From contig JAWQUS010000002.1 in assembly GCA_036365455.1 (NCBI GenBank), positions 4,154,001-4,218,000 on the forward strand: a stretch of DNA of 64,000 bases, in the 5' to 3' direction. This document shows, piece by piece, positions 3,088-56,187 of this stretch (positions within the stretch are counted from its first letter, which is position 1; the number at the start of each line of letters is the position of its first letter). This DNA is from Macrosoma leucophasiata. Taxonomy: Eukaryota; Arthropoda; Insecta; Lepidoptera; Hedylidae. The translations under genes were made by a program, and so were the position numbers. Under the pieces are notes generated by a model. That model did not search any database and had not been told where the DNA came from. It saw nothing but the letters and a program-made list of their open reading frames with translations.

Positions 3088-4567
3088 TACTAATTATTAA
3101 ATTAATTTAATTTTTATTTAATTTAATTTAAAATTATTTGGGGGTCATGACGACCCGGTTAGCCCAGCGGTGTGAGATGACCGTTCTGCACCAGCTATCG
3201 AGTGATCAGTTTGATCAGTTTGGCAGCTAAAGTGTATGGGAAAGTCTTAGAAAGAAGTATGAAAGAGAAGTCCGACGGGTTGTTGTGGGATGCACAGGGT
3301 GGTTTCAGAACTGGAAGAGGATGTATGGATCAAGTTTTCTCCCTCCGCAACATCGTAGAGAAGCATCTGGCTGTGAGTCAGAAAGTTTTCTGCGGTTTTG
3401 TGGATTTGGAGAAAGCGTTTGATAGGGTATTACGAAAGGAGCTGTGGGACATTTTGCCAGAGTATGGTATTGATGGCAGTCTACTCCGTTCATTACAGTC
3501 CACGTATGTGGGCTGTCAAGCATGTGTGCGGGTAGGTGGTAACATGTCACCCTGGTTTGATGTTAACATCGGTGTCAGACAGGGTTGCGTGCTTTCGTCT
3601 AGGCTGTTTATCATATATCAAACATGGACAAATGCCTCCAGAGGGTGAAGTTGATGGATGTGGGAGTGCGTATGGGTGACTTAGTGGTGAACTGTCTGCT
3701 TTACGCAGATGATGCGGTAATTGTTAGCTCTACACCATCTGGGCTACAAGCACTAGTCACAGTCATGAAAGAGGATTGTATGGAGAAAGGCTTACAATTG
3801 AATGTGGATAAAACTAAAGTATTTTTCTTTGAAATAGATGAGCAGAGAACAAATGCAAGGGTAGTAGTAGATGATGCAGTGTTAGAACAGGTGGATGAAA
3901 TTGTATATCTTGGATGTGCTTTTAGCAAGCATGGTAGGACCACCACTGACATAGAAAGAAGAGTGCTTGCTGGGAATCGCGTGAATGGAGCGTGGGGTAA
4001 GCTGCTAGAATCTAAACATCTCAGCCAGCGGGCGCGACTAGCCGTACATAATGCTGTACTTACTCCAACGCTTTTATATGGAAGCGCGAGCTGGGTATGC
4101 AGGAAAGAGCATGAAAGTAAGTTGAACGCGGTCGAGATGAGATCATTGCGTAAGATCTGCGGTGTATCACTCACCGATCGCGTTCGTAATGAAGATGTAA
4201 GAAAGAGGCTTTGTGTGAATGATAGTATCGGTGTAAAAATGAAAAATGGCATGCTCCGATGGTTCGAGCATATAGAATGAACGTCGAATGAGCGAATGAC
4301 TAAACAGATATACAATGCGAATGTGGATGGTTGCAGAGGCCCAGGAAGACCAAGACTGACCTACCATGACCAAATAGGTCGAGTTCTGTCTGATGGTGGG
4401 ATCAAAATTCTTAGGAATCGGCGTGCATGTATGAATGGAATGATGAAAGTAGACGAGGCACGAGAGGTTTGTCAGAACCGGGATATCTGGCGCTCTACAC
4501 TCTCTGCCTACCCCGTTAGGGACCTGGCGTGAAGATACATACATACATACATATACTAATTATTAAA
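3088..4567 (+). mobile_element. LINE-X: truncated non-LTR retrotransposon with 14 bp target duplication
   Basis: A 5'-truncated LINE bounded by TACTAATTATTAAA at 3088-3101 and again at 4554-4567. It carries a reverse-transcriptase pseudogene (3202-4532) and ends in an (ATAC)n tail at 4533-4553. The 3' end, CTCTGCCTACCCC...GGCGTGAAG, recurs as short truncated copies on both strands elsewhere in the window. The first ~100 bp inside the duplication (3102-3201) are not obvious LINE sequence: an AT-rich run, then a piece with a tRNA box-A-like TTAGCCCAGCGG. I could not assign a clade. Confidence 0.85.
3202..4532 (+). pseudogene. LINE-X reverse transcriptase, C-terminal two-thirds, broken
   Basis: The frame at 3202-3619 encodes RT palm/finger motifs: GGFRTGRGCMDQVF, a catalytic FVDLEKAFDRV and the primer-grip-side GVRQGCVLS. 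A frameshift near 3620 moves the reading to the frame of 3624-4532. That frame carries LLYADDAVIV, with the catalytic YADD, and the usual post-RT region (TLLYGSASWVCR, NAVEMRSLRKICGV, GMLRWFEH). An in-frame TGA at 4278-4280 interrupts it, and the frame ends ...LSAYPVRDLA. No endonuclease domain is present, as expected for 5' truncation. The element cannot make an active enzyme. Its role in a live copy would be target-primed reverse transcription. Confidence 0.9.
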
Positions 4568-10748: not shown

Positions 10749-11447
10749 TTTTTTTTTTTTTATGTCATTAAGTTGACAGACAAGCAGACGGGCCACCTGA
10801 TGGTAAGTGGTCACCGTCGCCTATGGACATTTGCAACACCAGGGGAGTTGCCAACGCGCTGCCAGCCCTGAAGGACTCTTTTGACAGTATTTTTGAAGAA
10901 CCCCATTTTGTAGCACCGAGGGAACACCTCAGAGGGAAGTTCGATCCACAATTTACACGTTCTGGGCAGAAACGAACGAGAAAACCGCACCGTTGAGCAC
11001 TGCCAGGTGTCCAGAAGGTGAGGGTGAAACTTCTCTCTTCGGCGGGTAGTACGGTGTAGAAAAAGAGACGGTGGTACCATGTCGAACAGTTCGACAGAGC
11101 ACTCACCATTGTAGAGACGGTATAACACGCACAGACTACCAATATCTCTGCGCAGGCTCACATGTTCGAGCCTGTCTGTAAGTCCCGGATCGTTAACAAT
11201 ACGAACGGCGCGTTTTTGTAGGGAGTCAAGTGGACCAAGCTGGTACTTGGGGGCTCCCGCCCACAAATGAGAGCAGTATTCCAGATGGGGCCGCACTTGG
11301 GCCTTATAAAGCTGTAGTAGCTGCCCCGATGTGAAATACTGCCTTGCTTTGTTAAGCACCCCCAACTTTTTGGATGCCAACTTGGTCTTACACTCAATGT
11401 GACTCCCAAATTGCACTTCGTTCGATATGTCAACGTAACTGTTCACT
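10749..11447 (-). mobile_element. CR1-like (CR1/Jockey-type) LINE, 5'-truncated
   Basis: The 3'-terminal ~700 bp of a non-LTR retrotransposon on the minus strand. A pol C-terminus (10811-11446) is followed by a short 3' tract ending TTAATGACATAAAAAAA (T run on + at 10749-10761). The 5' truncation is near 11447. The last ~28 bases resemble the 3' end of family A, suggesting this LINE type mobilises that SINE. Confidence 0.85.
10811..11446 (-). pseudogene. C-terminal part of CR1-like LINE polymerase ORF
   Basis: An open frame of 211 residues without a frameshift. It reads KLGVLNKARQYFTSGQLLQL, QVRPHLEYCSHLWAGAPKYQ, SLQKRAVRIVNDP, RRDIGSLCVLYRLYNGECS and FSRSFLPRTCKLWIELPSE, the conserved region downstream of the reverse-transcriptase core in CR1/Jockey-like elements of Lepidoptera. 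The catalytic YADD region is not included because of 5' truncation, so no function is retained. The ATG reported at the N-terminus is only an internal Met. The two other open frames over this interval are out-of-frame shadows. Integrity over 211 codons suggests a fairly recent insertion. Confidence 0.85.
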
Positions 11448-14573: not shown

Positions 14574-15527
14574 TTTTTAACATTCTTGTATCAAACCTTT
14601 TTTCCATGTTCTTCAAAATTCATTGTCGCCCTAACAGTACAAGAATTTTCGAATATCCTCCGTTCCAGATGCAACTGATATTACTTACAAGATACTATCA
14701 TTTTGGACCGATGACGAATGTACCAAGATAGTACGACATTTTGACAAATCGAAGTCCTGCCTGCTACTCGATTCTTATCACTGTTTTTATAAATTCGGTG
14801 ACCGTTATCTAATCCTTAGTTACAACCGATGTGCATTTCGATGTATCGATTTTGATCGATGCTAGTCCATTGTTGACAGATGGGATCTGACTTGATTTCC
14901 ATATTCTATATTTTTAAAACATATCGGGAGATGTTATCGAATTTCATCGCTTGGAACCAGTTTGGTCTGGATTACTCTGGATGAAGTATTTTTGTTTTGA
15001 AATGGAAGCAAATAACTAAAAGATGTAACTAAAAAGTAGATTGTACATTTTAGTATTCAATTGATCTTTATAACTTCGCAACTATTTATTCAATTTTAGT
15101 ATTCAAACTACGTTGCTATATGCTTTTAATCGATGGATAATAATGTGAAGACTTGTAACGAAGCAAGAAAAAAGTAAAATGGATCAACGTTAATAGAGAC
15201 ACACCGTGGGCAGGGCATAAAAAATATCTACTAAGTTGTCACGTCACAAGCAAATACGATTTGGTATGAGCCCTTATTCAGTCATTTCATAACTTGCAAC
15301 ATTTGAATGGTGATAATAATATCTCAACACGAATATATATAGACTAGTGGTTCCAAGAAAGATATTTAGGTACTACGTTTTCCTGTACATTTGAAATTGT
15401 ATAAAAATACCCTAATGTACTTGTAAAGCCTCGTATTCATGGTAAACATTTGTTTTTATATTATTTCGCATTAACACATGCTTGTGAAATATATTTTATT
15501 TTTAAAGAAAAATGGAAAGAAAAATTT

Positions 15528-15603
15528 GACTTCAGGCGAGGCTCGAACTCGCGACCAACTGGGAATCTAGTCCAGCCGCTCTTCCAATTGAGCTACTGAA
15601 GCC
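15528..15603 (-). pseudogene. tRNA-like unit, left arm of family T copy 1
   Basis: A 76 nt unit with box A TAGCTCAATTGG and box B AGTTCGAGCC. Acceptor, D and T stems can form. The anticodon stem GCTGG/CCAGT leaves a 9 nt loop, so no amino acid is assigned. A run of five T follows its 3' end, as a Pol III terminator would. Confidence 0.65.
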
Positions 15604-15723
15604 CTGCCCGATTTGTCAAATCTTTCCTTCACATCTATTGCATTGCTTTATGGTAGCAGTAGCGCCATCTATTACCAACTATGCTAGTTAGGCAACTCGG
15701 ACATATGTTGACAAATCGGGCAG

Positions 15724-15799
15724 GGCTTCAGTAGCTCAATTGGAAGAGCGGCTGGACTAGATTCCCAGTAGGTCGCGAGTTCGAGCCTCGCCTGAAGTC
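15724..15799 (+). pseudogene. tRNA-like unit, right arm of family T copy 1
   Basis: The mirror image of 15528-15603, head-to-head with it across a 120 bp centre. It contains U8, A14, GG at 18-19, a 5 bp T stem GCGAG/CTCGC with loop TTCGAGC, and CAAATTTTTC downstream. The oversized anticodon loop argues against a working tRNA gene. Confidence 0.65.
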
Positions 15800-16719
15800 A
15801 AATTTTTCTTTCCATTTTTCTTTAAAAATAAAATATGGTAAACATTTGTTTAGTAACATGGTTGCATAAACATGTTGCCAAGTTGCTGTCAACATATTGT
15901 AAGCAACACTAGTTTTGCGCAGTTGATCTTGCCATGTTGCAGAGTTCACAATAACAACTATGCAACCATGATGCTAAATAAATGTTTACCGTGAATAAGT
16001 GTCTTAATATTCTATTGTACTATAGATCTGAGCCCGGTCGTAGATAGCCAGCTGTCAGTCAATTAATTAACCAATCAATTATCACCACAATGCATCTTAC
16101 CCCGTATTGTCGGATATGTGTTATTATCATTGTCCGCTTCCAGTTAAAATATTTACATTCATTAATATCTCTTTCACTCCCTATCGTAAAAAACAACGTG
16201 TTCTCTCTTTCCGCTAACAAAACATAGGCTGTAATAAATTGTAATCAACATCTCGACACTAAGCAGGAATTAAACGCACACTAACATAAAATATTTCACG
16301 TAGCTATATCGTTTTTGTCTGTACAACAAACGCCCCGTATCAAGATTAAAATCTATTGGGTACAGCAAGCCAAATCGTACTACCGTTGAACGTTTGAAAT
16401 AGTGTGTTATACTGTACGTACTTTCTTTGCCGTCTGTACATTTTCTCCCCTACAAGATTGCATTTGTTTTTTGCAGCCATTTTGAAATTTTACGCACGAC
16501 TGGATGGTCAGTTTTTCGTGACATCGGATTATTTTTGTGGGTGCTGTTCGATATTATAAAAAAATAATTCTAAGCTTTGGGAACTTTTCGTACCTGGTAC
16601 AAAATTATTTGGTTACGGTTCTGTTTTATCATACTAAAAAATATCTGCCTGTTTAATTTGATTTTAGTAGGTAAATGTATAAGTGCCATAAACTACTAAT
16701 TAAATGTGATTCAGGTAGT

Positions 16720-27167: not shown

Positions 27168-27370
27168 TTGTCTTGAGCTTAATTTGGAATACAATCAAAG
27201 TAGGTACATGTAGATAAGTATGTATAAGTAGTTAACGTGTAAGAACTTTTTCTCAATATCCTTGCATTGTAGGTAGGTAAATATTAGGTAATAATAGATC
27301 ATAAAGATATCTTAAAATATTAGAGTTAATTTCTTTTTTTTTTTTAAAGAAAAAATGGAAAGAAAAATTT

Positions 27371-27446
27371 GACTTCAGGCAAGGCTCGAACTCGCGACCT
27401 ACTGGGAATCTAGTCCAGCCGCTCTTCCAATTGAGCTACTGAAGCC
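27371..27446 (-). pseudogene. tRNA-like unit, left arm of family T copy 2
   Basis: The same 76 nt unit as in copy 1, with GGCAAGGCTCGAACTCGC at its 3' side on the + strand, so one T-stem pair is changed. Box A and box B are intact. Confidence 0.6.
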
Positions 27447-27548
27447 ATGCCCGATTTGTCAAATCTTTCCTTCACATCTATTGCATTGCTTTATGGTAGC
27501 AGTAGCGCCATCCAGAGATGTGAAGGAAAGATTTGACAAATCGGGCAG

Positions 27549-27624
27549 GGCTTCAGTAGCTCAATTGGAAGAGCGGCTGGACTAGATTCCCAGTAGGTCG
27601 CGAGTTCGAGCCTCGCCTGAAGTC
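27549..27624 (+). pseudogene. tRNA-like unit, right arm of family T copy 2
   Basis: As far as I can read it, identical to 15724-15799 of copy 1 over its 76 bases, including the CAAATTTTTC that follows. Near-identity at two loci suggests recent spread or gene conversion. Confidence 0.65.
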
Positions 27625-28367
27625 AAATTTTTCTTTCCATTTTTCTTTAAAAAAAATAAAATATATTTCACAAGCATGTGTTAATGCGAAATAATATAAA
27701 AAACAATTATTAGAGTTAAGGTCTTAACTCGAACTGGGGCATGTTAGTGGATGCTTCCTTGTTGCAAAAGTAGGTCCAGTATCATTGTATAGAGTCTTGT
27801 GTTAAGTACCTCAAAATTTAATTACCAAAAGTAAATAATACTTAATATAAATTTGCCCAAATTATAATGAGTCAAAACTGTTTTTGATTAAAGCATCACA
27901 TTCATCATTTCAATACAATATAGTTTCGCAAACACAAAATAGATTTTCAATCATGAATAGTTATAATTTCTAGCCTCTAATAATTCACGCCTTTGCATCA
28001 TTGAATGCAATACCAAACAATCAATTTCCTTATCCTCTCCAATAGATATATCATCGAGCAATATGAAATTTAAATCTCACTAACAACCCGTTGGTTTGAC
28101 GTTGCCTAATGTTATCTACATCCTATAAGCTTAACGTCTTTATTAAGCCCATTGTCTGGCTCTTATTATGGTGAACGAAAGATACTCGTGCGCAACGGCC
28201 CTTATTATTGGCAATCTGCATACAATCACATATTTGCATAATATCTCAATTCATTCTTATGTCCCATGCTGATTTGAATAGGCATGGAACATTTCACGCA
28301 TGGCGGATTTTACGGGACTACACGGTTTAATGAAACCAAATATACTGATTAAGTACAAATTGGATGC

Positions 28368-46636: not shown

Positions 46637-47172
46637 ATAAAATGAACACAAGCGTATCGTTCAAAGGTTTGCGTAGTTTTGCTTAAAAAAAAGGACAATA
46701 TGAATATCAAGTTTTCATTCAACGTTAAACTCCCAAAACAGTCTCATCCCTTTTGTAATACACAAATCACATCTCACATCTAAATCCACGTGACTAAAGT
46801 AACCAAATTTTGACTTTTATTAAAATCTTTATTGGCGGTCCCATAGATCGACAGCTGTGCCGATTTTGCTATTGCCAGCGTTAGCTCCGCTTACATTATT
46901 GAATCCGGGAACGATCATGTCACGCCTACATTTATATAAAGCTAGTTCAATGAGAATTCAGGTAATATTCTATTGAATGAAAGTTATCACACTCTAATAA
47001 TGTATTGTATTTTTAGCAATTACACATGCCAGTGAAATAAACACTAAAAATAATAGAAGTAATGGAAAGCAAAAGAAAATCCCGAAGCATGAGCAAGAAT
47101 AAAATGTGAAAGAGAAATCGATAATCGGGTGTAGAACTGGGCTAAAGCACAATTTTTTCTCTGATGAACATA

Positions 47173-48452
47173 ATAGGTTGGGGAAAAAGTCTGTTCGCAT
47201 TATAGTATGTATGAACTTGTAATAAAATCGCTTTGGCTATGGTATTTGTATCTGGCTGGTTTTGGTATAATTGAAAGTTAAAATTTTAAAGAACATAATT
47301 CCAAATTCAAATTAGGCAAATGTGTGATTTTCATTTGTTTTTCGTACTGTCAAGATGAGTGAATCTAATGAAAAAATTCGATACATTTTAAAATTTTACT
47401 ACAAAAAAGGTAAAAATGCAACGCAAGCAGCAAAAAAAATTTGCGATGACCTAGTGCAGTGTCTGTGAGAGTAGCACAAATTTGGTTTAAGCGTTTTCAA
47501 TCCGGAAATTTTGATGTCAAAAATGCACCTCGCTCTGGTCGCCCTATTACGGATAAAATGGATGCCATTTTTGAAAAAGTGGAGCAAGATCGACATATCG
47601 GTAGTTACGACGTAGCTGAAAAACTGAGAATTGATCACAAAACAGTTTCGGCGCATTTGAAAAAAGCTGGGTACAAAAAAAAGCTCGATATTCGGGTACC
47701 TCACGAGCTCACTGAAAGAAACCTAATAAACCGTGTACTCATTTGTGATTCTTTATTACGACGTAATGAAACCGAATCATTTTTGAAGAAGCTGATAACT
47801 GGTGATGAAAAGTGGATCACGTACGACATGAACGTGCGAAAAAGGTCGTGGTCAAAGGCCGGTCAGGCTTCACAGACTGTGGCGAAACCCGGGTTAACTC
47901 GCAATAAGATGATGTTGTGTGTGTGGTGGGATTGGAAGGGCATTTATTCATTATGTGCTATTACCACCAGGCAGGACTATCGATTCTGAACTCTACTGCG
48001 AACAACTGATGAGATTAAAGCAAGAAGTTGAGAGAAAGCGGCCGGAATTGATCAACAGAAGGGTTGTGGTGTTTCATCATGATAACGCTAGACCTCACAC
48101 ATCTATAGGCACTCAGCAAAAATTAAGAGAGTTTGGCTGGGAGGTGTTAATGCATCCACCGTATAGTCCTGACCTTGCACCTTCAGATTTTCACCTGTTT
48201 CGGTCTCTTCAGAATTCTTTATGCAATGTCAGGTTAACATCACGAGAGGACTGCCAAATCCACTTGTCGCGGTATTTTGATGTGAAGCCCCAAAATTTTT
48301 ATAGCAATGGGATCATGTCCCTACCTACAAGATGGCAAAAGGTTATCGAACAAAATGGTACATACATACTTTAGTTAAATTTAAATAAACTATATTAAAA
48401 AATGTTTTGAATTATCTTAAAAAATGCGAAGAAACTTTTTCCCCAGCATTCC
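47173..48452 (+). mobile_element. Mariner (cecropia-like), near full length
   Basis: The left end, TA then ATAGGTTGGGGAAAAAGTC, is mirrored by a diverged right end ACTTTTTCCCCAGC. About 1.28 kb with a broken transposase. The left end is shared with the deleted copy at 33.3 kb. Confidence 0.88.
47355..48374 (+). pseudogene. Mariner transposase with two frameshifts
   Basis: Starts MSESNEKIRYILKFYYKKGK at 47355. A 7 bp deletion at about 47447, seen by comparison with the 33.5 kb copy, shifts the frame. The frame of 47459-47989 carries the HTH region (VSVRVAQIWFKRFQSGN) and the first catalytic Asp in ITGDEKWITYD. A second shift near 47940 leads to the frame of 47919-48374, with HHDNARPHTS and YSPDLAPSDFHLF. 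These hold the second and third catalytic Asp, 34 residues apart, so D,D34D. Family knowledge: Tc1/mariner cut-and-paste transposase with TA targets. This copy is inactive. Confidence 0.93.
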
Positions 48453-55988: not shown

Positions 55989-56187
55989 TAGTTCTCTTAG
56001 AAATTAAAGAAAAACCGGAAAGAAAAATTTGACTTCGGGCAGGAATCGAACCTGCGACCTCAGGATAACCAGTCCAGCTGCTTTACCCTCCTGCCCGAAG
56101 TCATTTTTTTTCCCGTTTTTTCTTTAATTTCTAAAGTTCACTCGCATGTGTTATTGCGAAAAATAAATAGTAAAATTAGTTCTCTTA
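55989..56187 (-). mobile_element. Family T fold-back SINE, copy 3 (short variant)
   Basis: TAGTTCTCTTA at 55989-55999 and 56177-56187, a perfect 11 bp duplication. Arms at 56000-56044 and 56089-56132 are inverse of each other (AGAAATTAAAGAAAAAC..GACTTCGGGCAGGA). The head with CGCATGTGTTATTGCGAAAA at the right matches copies 1 and 2. It has a single tRNA-like unit. Confidence 0.8.
56031..56102 (-). pseudogene. Degenerate tRNA-like unit of family T copy 3
   Basis: The minus strand reads GACTTCGGGCAGGAGGG..GCTGGACTGGTTATCCTGAG, then GTCGCAGGTTCGATTCCTGC. Box B GGTTCGATTCC is perfect. The D-arm half is replaced, so a cloverleaf does not form. Confidence 0.55.

Follow-up and report, generated by a model that had tools for sequence, protein, structure and literature searches.

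The element described here is a short retroposon with a 307-bp unit that includes one tRNA-like segment, and comparison of its copies indicates that its RNA probably served as template for two cDNAs, one started at each end of the cut target, that met head to head. The fold-back form adopted by many copies is most likely produced anew at each insertion by this priming from both target ends, as judged from sequence. Two-sided priming would explain outer ends that are unlike but repeatable, a centre that is free to vary, arms that derive from one source, and the single duplication that surrounds each insert. The three copies in the window, which is the entire 64,000-nt stretch of DNA under study, pointed to twin priming or snap-back synthesis, and a sample of copies from elsewhere in the genome decided between these two.

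The first of these copies, T1, was proposed in the initial annotation to consist of two 129-nt inverted arms, each with a tRNA-like unit, enclosed by a perfect 17-bp duplication. This structure was confirmed (Table 1). The two arms, each of 129 nt, are 99% complementary with one mismatch and are separated by 88 nt. The Rfam tRNA scores for both T1 units derive from a scan of a small region; the scan of the whole window with default filters reported tRNA in one T2 unit and the single T3 unit only. T1 interrupts a MITE-like inverted-repeat element in which positions 15434-15455 pair with 15976-15997 and positions 15837-15868 pair with 15959-15990. Removal of T1 together with one copy of the duplication restores this element whole, which provides independent support for the 17-bp duplication. 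The terminal inverted repeats of the MITE-like element are roughly 39 bp, and a second full copy of it was not found in the window.

T2 and T3 had been listed as further copies of the same family. Both inserts do reside within duplications, of 12 bp and 11 bp, respectively, but T3 possesses a single tRNA-like unit instead of a pair and is treated here as a member of a related family. The arms of T2 are 152 nt in length and 95% complementary with a loop of 36 nt, and the arm pieces of T3 are 32 nt and 22 nt and 91% complementary. The tail, which comprises a stem-loop motif and an A-rich end, is present at one end only: on the left in T1 and on the right in T2 and T3. In folding predictions, the RNA hairpins of T2 (-270.8 kcal/mol, z -31) and T3 (z -9.8) had energies far below those of shuffled sequences. 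A fourth locus, T4, is a degraded tail-side fragment of a relative for which a duplication and long arms were sought and neither was found.

Table 1. Positions of T1-T4, of the element interrupted by T1, and of related pieces in the flanks of sampled copies (positions without an L number are those of the window).
Feature	Position	Strand	Remarks
T1 target duplication, left copy	15439-15455	none	perfect 17-bp match to 15835-15851
T1 target duplication, right copy	15835-15851	none	direct repeat
T1 insert, two-armed	15456-15834	-	3' tail at left, so element reads on - strand
T1 3' tail	15456-15505	-	conserved stem-loop motif 15465-15488 and A-rich end
T1 tail-side arm	15491-15619	-	inverted-repeat comparison
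tRNA-like unit, T1 tail-side arm	15527-15603	-	ARAGORN; Rfam tRNA 48.5 bits
T1 loop, body segment present once	15620-15707	-	between arms
T1 predicted RNA first base, A at 15697 (U96), with DPE-like AGATG at 15670-15666 (+28 to +32)	15666-15697	-	
T1 second (5') arm	15708-15836	+	outer end at U302, just before tail stem-loop; overlaps duplication by 2 bases
tRNA-like unit, T1 second arm	15724-15800	+	ARAGORN; Rfam tRNA 49.4 bits
MITE-like inverted-repeat element interrupted by T1	15434-15997	none	inverted repeats flanking T1
T2 target duplication, left	27318-27329	none	12 bp
T2 target duplication, right	27708-27719	none	12 bp
T2 insert, two-armed, tail at right	27330-27707	+	repeat and tail comparison
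T2 second (5') arm	27328-27479	-	contains tRNA-like unit 27370-27446 (-)
T2 tail-side arm	27516-27667	+	contains tRNA-like unit 27549-27625 (+)
T2 3' tail	27667-27707	+	tail motif
T3 target duplication, left	55989-55999	none	11 bp
T3 target duplication, right	56177-56187	none	11 bp
T3 insert, a fold-back of the related family with Thr-like tRNA unit	56000-56176	+	one tRNA-like unit
T3 tRNA-like unit	56030-56102	-	antisense to tail; ARAGORN and Rfam
T3 3' tail with shared stem-loop motif	56137-56176	+	tail motif
T4, relic of a relative (degraded tail-side part)	46991-47074	-	motif 47013-47036
T3-type piece (window)	55989-56187		T3 with its duplications
T3-type piece	L067:8194-8370		two-armed
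T3-type piece	L058:5247-5402		two-armed
T3-type piece	L068:1850-1974		one-armed
T3-type piece	L050:8460-8598		one-armed
T3-type piece	L058:2389-2479		not readable
Flank relative	L059:6990-7420		two-armed
Flank relative	L065:2060-2340		two-armed
Flank relative	L057:355-445		two-armed (22-nt tail piece)
Flank relative	L053:5900-6025		one-armed
Flank relative	L063:357-389		not readable
Flank relative	L050:8815-8878		not readable

The genome was searched with T1 across 616 Mb in 61 contigs, which gave 472 first-look candidates of which 40 were scored. The sample of 41 copies that was analyzed comprises all 39 scored places besides T1, designated by L numbers, together with T1 and T2; T3 was counted apart as a relative. 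Twenty of the 39 places were examined again with 10 kb. A search with one unit as the query produced 1311 candidates in the genome, 40 of which were scored. Across the 41 copies, the T1-type element consists of the 307-bp unit either singly or in head-to-tail arrays, with sizes that range from less than one unit to ~22 units. The unit includes a body (U96-190) and the tRNA-like segment (U191-265), followed by two T5 runs. The usual 3' end is at U32-41, and a linker of ~58 nt (U38-95) intervenes between tandem units. The predicted stem of the tail pairs U300-305 with ~U22-27 and is weakly better than shuffled sequences (z -1.9 and -1.2). The GC content of the unit consensus is 0.36.

Two orientations with the tails outward were present in 27 of the 41 copies and one orientation in 14, a ratio that overstates the rate of two-armed copies because the query itself had two arms and scoring covered 40 of the 472 candidates. 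The 13 higher-ranked places, T1 and T2 were all two-oriented. The 26 lower-ranked places, in which the best match covered approximately the tail-side part of the query only, were divided between 12 two-oriented and 14 one-oriented copies. L036 and L061 have short inverted pieces at the 5' end that were noticed on visual reading, and these were left out of the arm count. Long arrays, for which the results depend on the assembly, included L051 with 7.93 units one way and 4.72 the other, and L052 with 15.56 and 6.79. The latter (L052:555-7419) is an inverted array of 6.9 kb and ~22 units with zero base substitutions among 20 full periods, of which 18 are identical and two have one extra A. It is probably a very young insertion.

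A duplication was found around the entire array in 34 of the 41 copies with scores of 7.6-16.4, compared to three of 41 with scores of 5.0-5.5 when the right flanks were swapped between loci as a control. Of the 27 copies with two orientations, 22 had a duplication, as did 12 of the 14 with one orientation. In the 33 copies that were orientable, the duplications were 9-20 bp in length, most often 13 bp, a few with one mismatch. The 6.9-kb array in L052 is bounded by a duplication of 15 bp. None was detected at L015, L035, L048, L057, L058, L063 and L066, including at L058 when its right edge was corrected for a neighboring T3-type copy. No strong endonuclease consensus was seen at the target sites. 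The duplications of 9-20 bp and the 3' tail that recur across copies bear out the proposal in the initial annotation that the element moves by retroposition. That annotation had also named, as grounds for refutation, copies elsewhere that are mostly single-armed or duplications that do not recur. The sample goes halfway towards this refutation: single-armed copies account for 14 of the 41 overall and 14 of the 26 lower-ranked places, and the duplications hold in the 34 copies noted above.

The outer ends of the two-oriented copies were repeatable. One outer end was the 3' tail (U32-50) in all 27. In 24, the other fell in the interval from U295 to U4 of the following unit, on the 5' side of the stem predicted for the tail. 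The three exceptions terminated at U203 (L048), U94 (L058) and U224 (L063); all lack a duplication and may be damaged. Centre junctions were distinct in 26 of the 27 copies. Repeatable outer ends in combination with differing centres argue that the fold-back is made anew in each insertion instead of being inherited. Position U96 was the start of 23 of the 77 aligned blocks, distributed in 23 of the 41 copies, and the next commonest position was the start of three. Among the 14 one-oriented copies, eight started at U96 and one at U94, with U39, U70, U71, U157 and U299 used in the rest.

The commonest start, U96, is situated 95 nt upstream of the tRNA-like unit, which begins at U191. When the A at U96 is designated as +1, TCAGTT matches the Initiator consensus (TCAKTY) and AGATG at +28 to +32 matches the DPE consensus (RGWYV), as these are stated in the available text of PMC1538597. 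Most internal units possess TCGGTT in place of TCAGTT, and in T1 the bases that precede A 15697 belong to the centre junction. Within every unit the template crosses two T5 runs, a passage not expected of Pol III. The start at U96 and the passage through these runs suggest that the template probably is a linear RNA of Pol II type rather than a Pol III SINE transcript, and that transcription of the mobile RNA probably is no longer driven by the tRNA-like unit. The divergent Pol III transcripts envisaged in the initial annotation are contradicted by the same two features as the makers of copies. Rfam tRNA matches of ~53 bits were obtained in L068 and L036, and L052 gave none at the gathering threshold. 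A hairpin transcribed from inserted copies is a possible Dicer substrate and this is a candidate role. Rfam matches to microRNA precursors at the centre of L023 were set aside, as several unrelated hairpin families matched one long palindrome and all were below gathering scores.

The form of the template also was assessed from the composition of the arrays. The base that precedes GTTGCC was A in 23 of 28 terminal places and G in 66 of 74 internal places, the sorting being automatic such that the terminal row for L033 is a chance match and an internal row for L037 is really terminal. The A at U96 was found internally in eight of 74 cases and was clear in L014, L027, L036, L061 and L062. The difference between terminal A and internal G implies that the first unit of the template usually is unlike the next, and thus that the template is linear and can contain multiple units. 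In L027, a unit with 175C and 260C precedes a unit with 189A and 199G in each of the two arms, which are offset by one unit, and one arm has one additional unit outside. This shared order directly shows a multi-unit template. The 23 unit cores of L052 are identical and differ by at least 5.4% from the units of other copies that were compared; cores that are identical yet distinctive argue for the same source for both arms. The cores within L050, L051, L059 and L060 also are identical, but have exact matches at other loci and therefore say little about a common source. Divergence of 2.4-3.6% was apparent within one orientation in L027, L053 and L066. The arms may represent one RNA copied twice or two sister RNAs.

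Repeated copying of a circular 307-nt RNA from both target ends, as in a retrozyme, is unlikely, albeit in keeping with the constant unit length and the identical units within L051 and L052. Indeed, the near-identity of L052 fits a circular template or later homogenization as well as it fits a homogeneous source array. Tandem units of ~300 bp that form dimers to large multimers, low GC content and duplications are described for metazoan non-LTR retrozymes in the available portion of PMC7229834, and tandem units within the range of ~150-450 bp (307 bp), low GC (0.36) and duplications were all observed for the T1-type element. However, arms that pass U96 many times still end there, with the terminal A and internal G noted above, and the unit types in L027 are in fixed order in both arms. 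No hammerhead was found in Rfam scans of the window, of L027 and L023 at E values up to 5, and of L036, L052 and L068, and the core motif was absent on both strands of the unit consensus. In addition to this lack of a detected hammerhead and the signature of a linear template, the T1-type element differs from retrozymes in its tRNA-like unit and its head-to-head arrays.

An inverted arm also would result if the 3' end of the first cDNA folded and primed its own second strand, and short pieces of this kind were evident. In L010, L015 and L020, a snap-back of 21-36 nt (U104 to U124-U139) is joined at U104 to U96. The snap-back of 21-22 nt at U96 is common to L010 and L015, in which the second arm is joined at U185 and U202, and is one of three switches in L020. 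Structure prediction for a one-unit RNA places a hairpin near these snap-backs, at its 5' end. Self-priming adds something in these copies, but as the source of the second arm in general it is improbable. The outer end of that arm is at one site in 24 of 27 copies, which self-priming does not predict. Moreover, the second arm is the longer in eight of 24 copies (L013, L018, L027, L049, L052, L056, L057 and L059), and snap-back is thus not the main route. In L059 the second arm extends for 3.68 units compared to a tail arm of 58 nt.

Growth of a monomer or dimer after insertion, by unequal exchange, inverted insertion or gene conversion, is quite improbable. Arrays can homogenize, and the distinction between internal G and terminal A would survive growth from a dimer. 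Nevertheless, the arms of L027 share both variants and unit order, arms terminate directly against the duplications and do so at two recurrent kinds of site, and L052 is already head to head with no substitution in its 20 full periods.

A self-complementary SINE transcript that acts as the template, so that the fold-back is inherited as a unit, is highly improbable. Two-armed copies do recur, the arms of T1 and T2 are nearly identical, and the centres of L018 and L048 agree within 3 nt, although with the roles of the arms exchanged. However, the loops of T1 and T2 share sequence but are in opposite directions relative to the tail, and the arms of T3 are 90% identical to each other compared to 69-83% with the arms of T1 and T2, both of which argue against inheritance of the fold-back as a unit, as do the centres, distinct in 26 of 27 copies, and the one-armed copies, of which eight of 14 start at U96. 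Thus, the recurring family of self-complementary SINEs that was first suggested stands insofar as the fold-back recurs in 27 of the 41 copies of the biased sample, but not in the inheritance of that structure. The inverted arms alone recall foldback or MITE-type DNA transposons, an explanation that can practically be dismissed as the duplications vary from 9 to 20 bp and the outer ends are unlike, one being the tail in every two-oriented copy.

In the preferred reading of two-sided priming, tandem source copies would be transcribed from U96, in Pol II-type fashion, into linear RNAs that contain a single unit or many. A putative partner non-LTR reverse transcriptase would bind the tail stem-loop and prime the first cDNA at the tail from the first nick; the element that encodes this putative partner may end in TTCACnnGCATGTGTTAnTGCGAA. 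The second cDNA would be primed by the other target end, either on the same RNA or on a sister of it, at a position immediately upstream of the stem-loop. The two cDNAs would be joined wherever each stops, often at the 5' end of the RNA, thereby producing an inverted repeat with a copy-specific centre, and the first cDNA alone would yield a one-armed copy. A broader and more tentative proposal is that the T1-type family habitually inserts in this two-sided manner: linear multi-unit Pol II RNAs may undergo reverse transcription primed at each end of a single break, the base of the tail stem-loop being the fixed site of the second start, and single events may generate inverted satellite-like arrays of up to ~22 units, near-perfect palindromes of kilobase length with tandem promoters, that at the same time are possible new sources and possible hairpin small-RNA loci. 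If correct, target-primed reverse transcription from both target ends would be a family habit in which the site is set by RNA structure, and would allow long inverted repeats and seeds of satellite arrays, which usually are ascribed to recombination, to form in one step. The fixed second start would make the two-primer model of non-LTR integration directly testable, and the inverted arrays are candidate sources of hairpin-derived small RNAs.

The closest known systems are twin priming, tRNA-derived SINEs and the metazoan retrozymes discussed above. In twin priming by L1, both target ends also prime and an inverted 5' segment is flanked by duplications of 10-20 bp. According to the available text of PMC12016303, the cDNAs in L1 twin priming have a median overlap of 12 bp where they overlap, and inversions affect 0.02% of germline Alu and 0% of SVA insertions; in one assay in human cells, 5' inversions were nearly confined to L1 (PMC4245944, available part). 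In contrast, both cDNAs of the T1-type element cover one stretch, of 129 nt in T1 and of several units in L049, L051 and L052, the second start is at one site, and the event is common among the sampled copies. tRNA-derived SINEs similarly are short and dispersed with a tRNA-like unit, a conserved 3' tail and duplications (lepidopteran examples in PMC8010984, as far as its available text extends), whereas the commonest start among T1-type copies is 95 nt ahead of the tRNA-like unit, their template crossed T5 runs, and the copies are found in tandem and head-to-head arrays. The joins between tandem T1-type units carry a common linker (~58 nt, U38-95), unlike the tandem cDNAs with head-to-tail joins that the R2 reverse transcriptase reportedly produces by end-to-end template jumping, and this linker suggests tandem templates rather than joined RNA ends. 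Viral and genome contig collections yielded no relative when searched with patterns from the tail, the tRNA part and the body, a tail match in one viral contig (L001) being regarded as chance as the surroundings resemble a phage gene and share nothing else with the element. A published family with the T1-type layout was not found in listings from the open-licence PMC literature, which is not proof of absence.

The T3 type is a second family, with a Thr-like tRNA unit, that has the tail motif in common with the T1 family. At least eight T3-type pieces were noted in the ~262 kb of the window and flanks, and the family is probably abundant. Relatives in the flanks of L049-L068, which were not chosen for arms and were classed by reading of the sequence, comprised five two-armed, three one-armed and three unreadable pieces. 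The relative family behaves in a similar way to the T1 type: inverted pieces are paired in T3, L067, L058 (5247-5402) and L057, and by reading one piece ends beside the stem-loop in T3, L067 and L057. Where the 5' end of a T3-type relative could be read, the copy starts close to its tRNA-like unit and resembles an ordinary tRNA SINE that has the T1-type tail motif. Open reading frames at 3624-4280 (+) and 10811-11446 (-) of the window encode putative fragments of what we take to be LINE-type reverse transcriptase; no connection of these frames to the T1-type tail was found. Close to T4, the reading frames at 47459-48374 presumably represent a putative broken transposase of mariner type.
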